Below, piece after piece: positions 38,778 through 39,513 of a stretch of 64,000 nt of DNA (the stretch's first letter is position 1; the number at the start of each line of letters is the position of its first letter). The notes under the pieces are model-generated. The model worked only from the letters and a program-made list of their open reading frames with translations. It was not told where the DNA came from and did not search any database. The translations under genes and the position numbers were made by a program. The DNA is taken from contig JAPOWG010000061.1 in the NCBI GenBank assembly GCA_026707745.1, positions 1 through 64,000 on the forward strand, in the 5' to 3' direction. Source of the DNA: Chloroflexota bacterium (GTDB lineage: Bacteria > Chloroflexota > Anaerolineae > Aggregatilineales > Phototrophicaceae).

Positions 38778-39513
38778 AACCCCTCATCCCCCGGCCCCTT
38801 CTCCCACAAGGGGAGAAGGGGAGCGTTTTGACCGCGCTTTGGAGGAAATCGGAGATCGCGCCATCTCGGACCCGGCCAGCGTCGCTACAAGTTGGGATTC
38901 TAGCGCAAAAATCACTCATGAAATGCTCGGCGGATCTTTTCCAAGGCAGATGGCAAATTGTCTTCAACTTCGTGGTTATGCAATCTGACGAAGCGGATGC
39001 CGAGCGCTTCAATCAATTCCTGACGTATCTGGTCGGCTTCTTGCTGGCGTTCGTGAATTAGTCCATCGACTTCAACAACAAGGCGCTCCGATGCACAATA
39101 GAAGTCCACTACAAACACGCCAAGTGGAACCTGACGCCGGAACCTGACGCCGGAACTTGCGCCCATCAAGCCGTCTGCTGCGTATTGCCTGCCATAGTAG
39201 CCCTTCGGCGAAGGTTGAACGCTGCCGCAATTCTCGTGCCAAGCCGTGCATTTTGCGCTTTAAATCAGGCGGAATGTCCCAAATCTCTGGATGTTCCATT
39301 GATTAATCCTCATATCACGACCCTTGGTCTACCTCGGTTCCCGCGCTTCATACGGTGGGCGGACTTCCCACACAGGGAGAATGGGAACCATCATCGCGAA
39401 CGCCATACCCTGATTTTAGCAGCGTATGGGAGGCGGGCACCAGAAAAACACTCGGCTCGCAATTGGGGACAAAGTCCCTCTCCCTTGATGGGAGAGGGAT
39501 TTAGGGTGAGGGT
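38778..39513. mobile_element. Putative DUF559-endonuclease mobile repeat unit
   Basis: Left end CCCCTCATCCCCCGGCCCC + 11-bp hairpin; right end CCCTCTCCC hairpin + GGGTGAGGGT; encloses a DUF559 relic; same ends on the miniature units. Confidence 0.6.
38912..39299 (-). pseudogene. DUF559 (Vsr-like) endonuclease, frameshifted
   Basis: Two overlapping frames give MEHPEIWDIPPDLKRKMHGLARELRQRSTFAEGLLWQAIRSRRLDGRKFRRQVP and LGVFVVDFYCASERLVVEVDG...; frame shift at a 13-bp tandem duplication. Confidence 0.85.

Follow-up and report, generated by a model that had tools for sequence, protein, structure and literature searches.

A DUF559 nuclease gene enclosed by inverted CCC..GGG palindromes: a probable mobile system with a REPtron-like layout and an unrelated enzyme

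The closest described counterparts in layout to the locus analyzed here are the REPtrons and REPINs, in which REP palindromes tagged with GTAG accompany the gene for RAYT (TnpA-REP), an HUH Y1 transposase (PMC3733652, PMC2817692, PMC3116915). Two further kinds of dispersed palindrome have been described, namely the CGTC-tagged REPs, which are reported to lack a dedicated transposase (PMC3733652), and the Rickettsia palindromic elements (RPEs), which lie in frame in unrelated genes, where they are apparently tolerated, and which have no enzyme gene and none assigned to them (PMC10969869, PMC3733652). With respect to the enzyme, the closest described systems are the EDxHD homing endonuclease I-Bth0305I and the free-standing homing genes, which spread site-specifically into conserved genes (PMC3943268), and the nucleases of the Vsr superfamily, to which the Caulobacter DUF559 protein VsrA belongs. 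VsrA drives the DNA-damage response in cells without a cytosine methyltransferase and has been read as a VSP-repair enzyme (PMC12907096).

The stretch of DNA analyzed (64,000 nucleotides of a contig from a Chloroflexota bacterium; hereafter the window) carries a DUF559 gene between two repeat ends (Table 1). Two minus-strand frames match DUF559 (PF04480), at 38912-39169 (E 1e-22, 80.5 bits) and at 39072-39299 (E 1e-9, 38.6 bits), and as both scores exceed the Pfam gathering cut-off of 20.6 the gene belongs to this family; its frame is shifted by a 13-bp tandem duplication, in which CCTGACGCCGGAA stands at 39130-39142 and again at 39143-39155. It is the sole DUF559 copy found in the host genome (4.89 Mb), and PF04480 is the only product encoded by the unit, which contains no recognised transposase. 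Each end consists of a tag plus a hairpin and is asymmetric, the C-rich tag being followed by a hairpin with a C-rich 5' arm and a G-rich 3' arm; the two ends are mutually inverted with their tags facing outward, so that terminal inverted repeats are present, as they mostly are at other loci also. The left end (38780-38823) is identical at 44 of 44 positions to the reverse complement of 27041-27084. The coordinates and sequences proposed for the gene and its ends in the original prediction, including those of the right end (39476-39513), were found to be correct. No known structured RNA was found in the region of the window from 18 to 41 kb. The surrounding region (34470-42725) is an opp-type oligopeptide transport operon interleaved with two sialidase-like genes, an arrangement that recurs in congeners.

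Table 1. Positions in the window of the DUF559 unit, its ends and the related gene-less units
Feature	Position	Strand	Basis or remark
Host-only stretch	38687..39578	.	Congener homology breaks at ~38687 and returns at ~39578; blastn against L267-L273 and reading of junctions
Left end: tag CCCCTCATCCCCCGG and hairpin CCCCTTCTCCC-ACAAG-GGGAGAAGGGG	38780..38823	+	Dispersed in host
DUF559 nuclease gene, frameshifted	38912..39299	-	PF04480 in two frames
13-bp tandem duplication (CCTGACGCCGGAA twice) breaking the DUF559 frame	39130..39155	-	Sequence
Right end: hairpin CCCTCTCCC-TTGAT-GGGAGAGGG and tag ATTTAGGGTGAGGGT, inverted relative to left end	39476..39513	-	
Tag CCCCTCATCCCCCGT alone, left over from another left-type repeat, a short way beyond the right end	39532..39546	+	Read directly
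Doublet without a gene: ends ACCCTCACCCC and CCCCTTCTCCCC..GGGGATGAGGGG, tags facing outward	26914..27086	+	
Palindrome nested in left hairpin of the 26.9-kb doublet	26938..26970 (approximate)	+	Missing from the orthologous hairpin of G021 (L369)
Second gene-less doublet, same ends	19769..19914	+	First 75 bases equal 26914-26988; aligned

Comparison with congeners shows that the site is otherwise occupied by little DNA. Seven of them (L267-L273) keep both neighbours, the 5' end of the sialidase-like gene and the 3' end of the oppD-like gene, with 37-238 unrelated bp between them vs 891 bp in the host, and in all seven both DUF559 and any visible palindrome are absent from the site; in the closest congener (G021), whose sialidase-like protein is 96% identical, it measures 49 bp. 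Because these seven genomes keep the neighbours and have neither DUF559 nor a palindrome, the window unit is a lineage-specific insertion, the gene of which is already broken. The boundaries of the insertion cannot be fixed to the base, since the intergenic DNA differs in all eight genomes, and in this flanking DNA, different among all the congeners, no target-site duplication or base-exact junction was found.

The ends themselves are dispersed repeats. A 25-base core of the left end has 5 matches in the window at up to 3 mismatches, vs 0.00 expected, and never occurs in shuffled windows. A slightly degenerate form of this end is present at 76 places in the host genome (again at up to 3 mismatches), 16 of them exact; as a reversed-pattern control yields 51, the loosest of these matches carry little weight. 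Of the 16 exact matches, ten are gene-less doublets, paired with an inverted tag at a distance of 85-182 bp; in one more, the DUF559 locus of the window, the partner stands at ~710 bp. The two doublets of the window share their first 75 bases exactly, and in both of them the CACCCC end holds a second palindrome nested within the hairpin. For the doublet at 26914-27086 there are four end-to-end matches at other places in G021, and at its own site G010, G004 and G016 have just 13-71 bp between conserved flanks. In the orthologous doublet of G021 the left hairpin is unbroken, whereas that of the window holds a palindrome of ~35 bp; the right hairpin is broken in G021 by a palindrome of ~38 bp from the same nested family and is unbroken in the window. 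Because the nested copies differ in this way between the two orthologous doublets, palindromes insert into palindromes; the junctions of the nested copies show small local changes and no clear duplication. The short units had been interpreted as internally deleted derivatives of a larger gene-bearing element, of which the common ends hold up; beyond the ends, nothing resembling the inner part of the DUF559 unit was seen in the gene-less units, and at some sites these may instead predate DUF559 and have served as its landing places. Repeat copies also lie ~60 bp or less from the contig ends in host contigs C34, C37, C98, C99, C105, C108, C12 and C81, and likewise at the start of the contig that contains the window; the assembly breaks at repeats. 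A second, unrelated dispersed repeat of ~100 bp lies in the window at 27125-27223; over 30 copies of it occur in congener G020, and it is also numerous in G021.

A strict search for the window's own tag near the DUF559 genes of relatives found almost nothing, because the sequences of stem and tag differ by lineage, and hairpins were therefore located by a sequence-independent finder (perfect arms of at least 8, loop of 3-12, G+C-rich, at least 85% pyrimidine in one arm). At 35 congeneric and family loci (517 kb), several of them at orthologous sites so that hairpin counts are not independent, the 300 bp on either side of DUF559, 4% of the DNA, hold 61 of the 94 hairpins. In a set of 80 loci drawn across GTDB (Chloroflexota, Cyanobacteriota, Bacteroidota, Acinetobacter, Brevundimonas, Planctomycetes, Gracilibacteria and others), CCC..GGG palindromes occur at 2.05 per kb within 400 bp of DUF559 vs 0.071 per kb beyond; calculated per non-coding kb, the values are 3.38 near and 0.34 far. 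The polar hairpins near DUF559 in this set comprise 123 of the CCC..GGG type and none of the GGG..CCC type. The result was replicated at 30 other loci from the host phylum, with 2.31 per kb near vs 0.148 per kb far and 3 hairpins of opposite polarity nearby. Palindromes lie on both sides of DUF559 at 34 of the 80 and 12 of the 30 loci, and at 0 of 57 loci of control genes (five gene groups, Y1 transposases included); the flanking pairs are inverted in 19 cases, direct in 6 and unclear in 9. About a fifth to a third of loci have no hairpin by the criteria used, and many others are one-sided. In one genome (G072) the only two exact matches to CCCTCYCC..GGRGAGGG both flank its DUF559 gene (L136). 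Chance or composition could be invoked, in that such repeats are so common, being numerous in the host and its congeners, that some would land beside a DUF559 relic; we give this reading almost no credence, as it is already refuted by the near/far contrast (29-fold, and 10-fold after intergenic normalisation), the strict polarity, the replication in 30 loci and the lack of two-sided flanking at all 57 control loci. Among single-mismatch stems of the flanking palindromes, at many loci, the mismatch is T.G on one strand (C.A on the other) in 17 of 20. T.G mismatches are the substrate of Vsr; transitions in the pyrimidine arm would yield the same pattern, and this observation was thus rejected as a Vsr signature and kept as a lead only.

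Individual sites were found in more than one state. In an N6-methylase gene of the genus, at one place after the motif EMLLICRR, three alleles are empty (L195, L198, L199), three have palindrome-derived codons alone (L188, L191, L196), and three have palindrome, DUF559 and palindrome (L184-L186), the latter two states both being in frame. A second site (site X), intergenic between genes for a substrate-binding protein and a permease in 17 congeners, contains DUF559 with palindromes in six (G018, G017, G012, G022, G002, G007), palindromes only, intact or degenerate, in eight (G013, G014, G005, G009, G008, G021, G000, G003) and no palindrome in two (G001, G011); it is unreadable in G015. In four of the palindrome-only genomes (G000, G003, G005 and G014; L293, L296, L299 and L286) site X has a small open frame, apparently related from genome to genome, where DUF559 stands in other congeners. 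The original prediction had named a lack of DUF559 enrichment between such ends and a lack of empty-site polymorphism as outcomes that would refute it. Neither was obtained: enrichment is strong, both within the genus and over many phyla, and identical sites occur filled, with palindromes only, and empty. The evidence for association of DUF559 with the palindromes, and for mobility, is strong.

DUF559 was also found in frame within the long open frames of unrelated genes, namely N6/Eco57I methylases, MmeI-type, Type ISP and DUF1156 genes, a GltD-like oxidoreductase and the isoleucyl-tRNA synthetase gene (ileS) of two Bacteroidota genomes; all of these embedded cases are from metagenome-assembled genomes. 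In most of them palindromes are present on both sides, and in L143 both are downstream. The two ileS insertions differ in position, more than ten other Bacteroidota ileS genes have no insert, and no second ileS turned up in a search of either insert-bearing genome. Such insertions inside genes can remain in frame because the G+C-rich ends often have no stop codon. The many embedded copies in restriction-modification genes could be taken for ordinary domain architecture, with DUF559 a native nuclease domain of restriction enzymes that sometimes stands alone. The presence of DUF559 at two different positions in ileS and the empty alleles of orthologous methylases already contradict this reading, and its occurrence in the GltD-like gene and the palindromes that border it argue in the same direction; we consider it very improbable.

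In a tree of DUF559 proteins, many forks of which are unresolved, the window copy groups with seven embedded copies (SH-aLRT 99 for the clade), whose host genes are of the N6-methylase, MmeI, ISP and DUF1156 kinds; thus one DUF559 lineage has occupied several different places. An AlphaFold model (pLDDT 89) has as its best match the solved structure of a DUF559 protein (3hrl), followed by the I-Bth0305I catalytic domain and, more weakly, by Vsr. The match to I-Bth0305I (3r3p; E 1.3e-4, TM 0.68-0.77) represents the nearest solved fold outside the DUF559 family. An alignment of 11 proteins shows no variation at D49, E60, D62 or H66, and these residues are candidates for the active site, which, judging from the model, is likely to be the same as that of the EDxHD homing endonuclease. 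The resemblance of the fold to Vsr, together with the proposal of Caulobacter VsrA as a VSP-repair enzyme (PMC12907096), could suggest a host repair gene, in which case DUF559 would be a Vsr-like nuclease of mismatch repair and the palindromes would serve it as terminators or regulatory hairpins. We regard this as improbable, since the same palindromes are found within unrelated genes, in frame, and at identical sites without DUF559; moreover, terminators are not marked by a strict CCC..GGG polarity or by inverted pairs on the flanks, and the presence of DUF559 within the host genus is patchy.

The reading that we favour, and hold to be probable, is that DUF559 and the surrounding CCC..GGG palindromes form one mobile system with a layout like that of RAYT and REPINs and an unrelated enzyme. 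Its unit would comprise tag and hairpin, the DUF559 gene, and hairpin and tag, with ends that are mostly inverted. The Vsr/EDxHD-type nuclease would most likely nick or cut DNA at the palindromes, possibly when these are folded as hairpins, and repair would then fill the break, in the manner of homing, with a copy of a palindrome-bounded segment (a single palindrome, a doublet or the entire DUF559 unit); the palindromes scattered in the genome would then be both products and landing sites, supplying targets and homology. Cutting by DUF559 followed by repair copying would account for the enrichment, polarity, nesting, reuse of sites and in-frame insertions; we infer that DUF559 cuts, that a segment is then copied, and in what order events took place at individual sites. 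DUF559 is the likely mover of the repeats, in view of the association, its fold and the lack of another known enzyme. The idea of a mobile repeat linked to a DUF559 endonuclease is accordingly upheld by the enrichment and the multi-state sites, and the part of it in which DUF559 itself propagates the repeats is one that we infer.

The main rival, which we think unlikely, is that another enzyme, general recombination or replication template switching moves the palindromes and that DUF559 is cargo caught between them. Most units are indeed gene-less, palindromes are plentiful in some genomes that have no DUF559 (G019, and G003 with 123), and their copy number has no significant tie to DUF559, the medians being 43 in congeners with DUF559 vs 21 in those without (p 0.11). 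However, a 16- to 29-fold near/far contrast, with none of 57 controls flanked on two sides, would be hard to obtain from random capture; the link recurs across phyla with differing stem sequences, and the ends of DUF559 itself are the only exact-pattern palindromes in the L136 genome. RAYT, the only known palindrome mover, is essentially absent: strong hits to PF01797 in the genus are confined to G033, a genome with no such palindrome by the pattern used, and RAYT was thus rejected as the mover in this repeat-rich genus. Mobility driven by DUF559, the reading preferred here, leaves unexplained why copy number in the genus is not significantly linked to DUF559, why some loci are one-sided, and how the spread between lineages takes place, since plasmid records seldom carry DUF559 (44 of 72,556). 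At this frequency, strain-level movement could not be followed on plasmids. A broader claim, to which we would give even chances, is that this is an unrecognised class of mobile element in which DUF559 moves itself and gene-less palindromes by cutting at palindromes, in many phyla, and enters even essential genes (ileS) in frame with the host protein still working.

DUF559 also lies on some plasmids. On pDEIPR03 of Deinococcus proteolyticus (L359) it interrupts an hpa catabolic cluster and is bounded by ~50-bp inverted repeats, which reach beyond the tags (GGGCCAGCGTTGCTG...) and are the longest ends seen. On a plasmid of Synechocystis sp. B12 (L360) DUF559 appears to split a DUF1156 gene, and on pAQ6 of PCC 7002 (L357) it lies just upstream of one, both echoing L238. 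In E. coli K-12 the DUF559 gene ycjD (fabI-ycjD-sapF, L183:6203-6761) adjoins CCCCTCACCCTAACCCTCTCCCCAGAGGGGCGAGGGG, a repeat whose median number per E. coli genome is 3, and the ycjD locus is full-length in only 3363 of the 5395 genomes with a match. It was discarded as a clean filled/empty site, as an efflux operon lies between fabI and sapF in a strain scored as lacking ycjD.

If the proposed system is real, 'orphan' palindromic repeats, a widespread class, would gain a likely enzyme, and a large, poorly understood nuclease family would gain a likely role; REP-type elements would then have a second chemistry, unrelated to the first. The embedded copies offer natural cases of a whole gene inserted in frame in an essential gene, and the model is testable in laboratory bacteria, given that E. 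coli K-12 has ycjD beside such a repeat. No earlier description of a link between DUF559 and palindromes was found in the open-access papers searched, outside which most subscription journals lie, so an earlier report is possible.

Among the known systems, VsrA shares the nuclease superfamily, is itself a DUF559 protein and acts on DNA in vivo; it is accounted for as methylase-tied mismatch repair, and palindromes and mobility are absent from that account in the part of the report available (PMC12907096). I-Bth0305I and the free-standing homing genes (PMC3943268) have the same fold and the same site-specific spread into conserved genes, whereas DUF559 has no surrounding intron or intein, shows no DNA-binding extension and is bordered by palindromes that also occur gene-less. 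The in-frame palindromes in unrelated genes recall the RPEs, which differ in sequence and in having no enzyme. The dispersed tagged palindromes resemble the CGTC-tagged REPs but differ in their tag, as CGTC stands within 8 nt of the hairpin in 2 of 124 cases. With the REPtron the likeness is one of layout: tagged palindromes, mostly in inverted pairs, flank one small enzyme gene, and gene-less singles and doublets are scattered in the genome, some inside genes, in the host and its congeners. Unlike in the REPtron, the enzyme is a PD-(D/E)XK/EDxHD nuclease and not HUH, the tag is a C-rich stretch resembling CCYCAYCCCYRR (GTAG stands within 8 nt of the hairpin in 1 of 124 cases), and the whole DUF559 gene is found inserted in frame in other genes. 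The DUF559 unit thus works like a REPtron but departs from it in both defining features, the enzyme and the tag.
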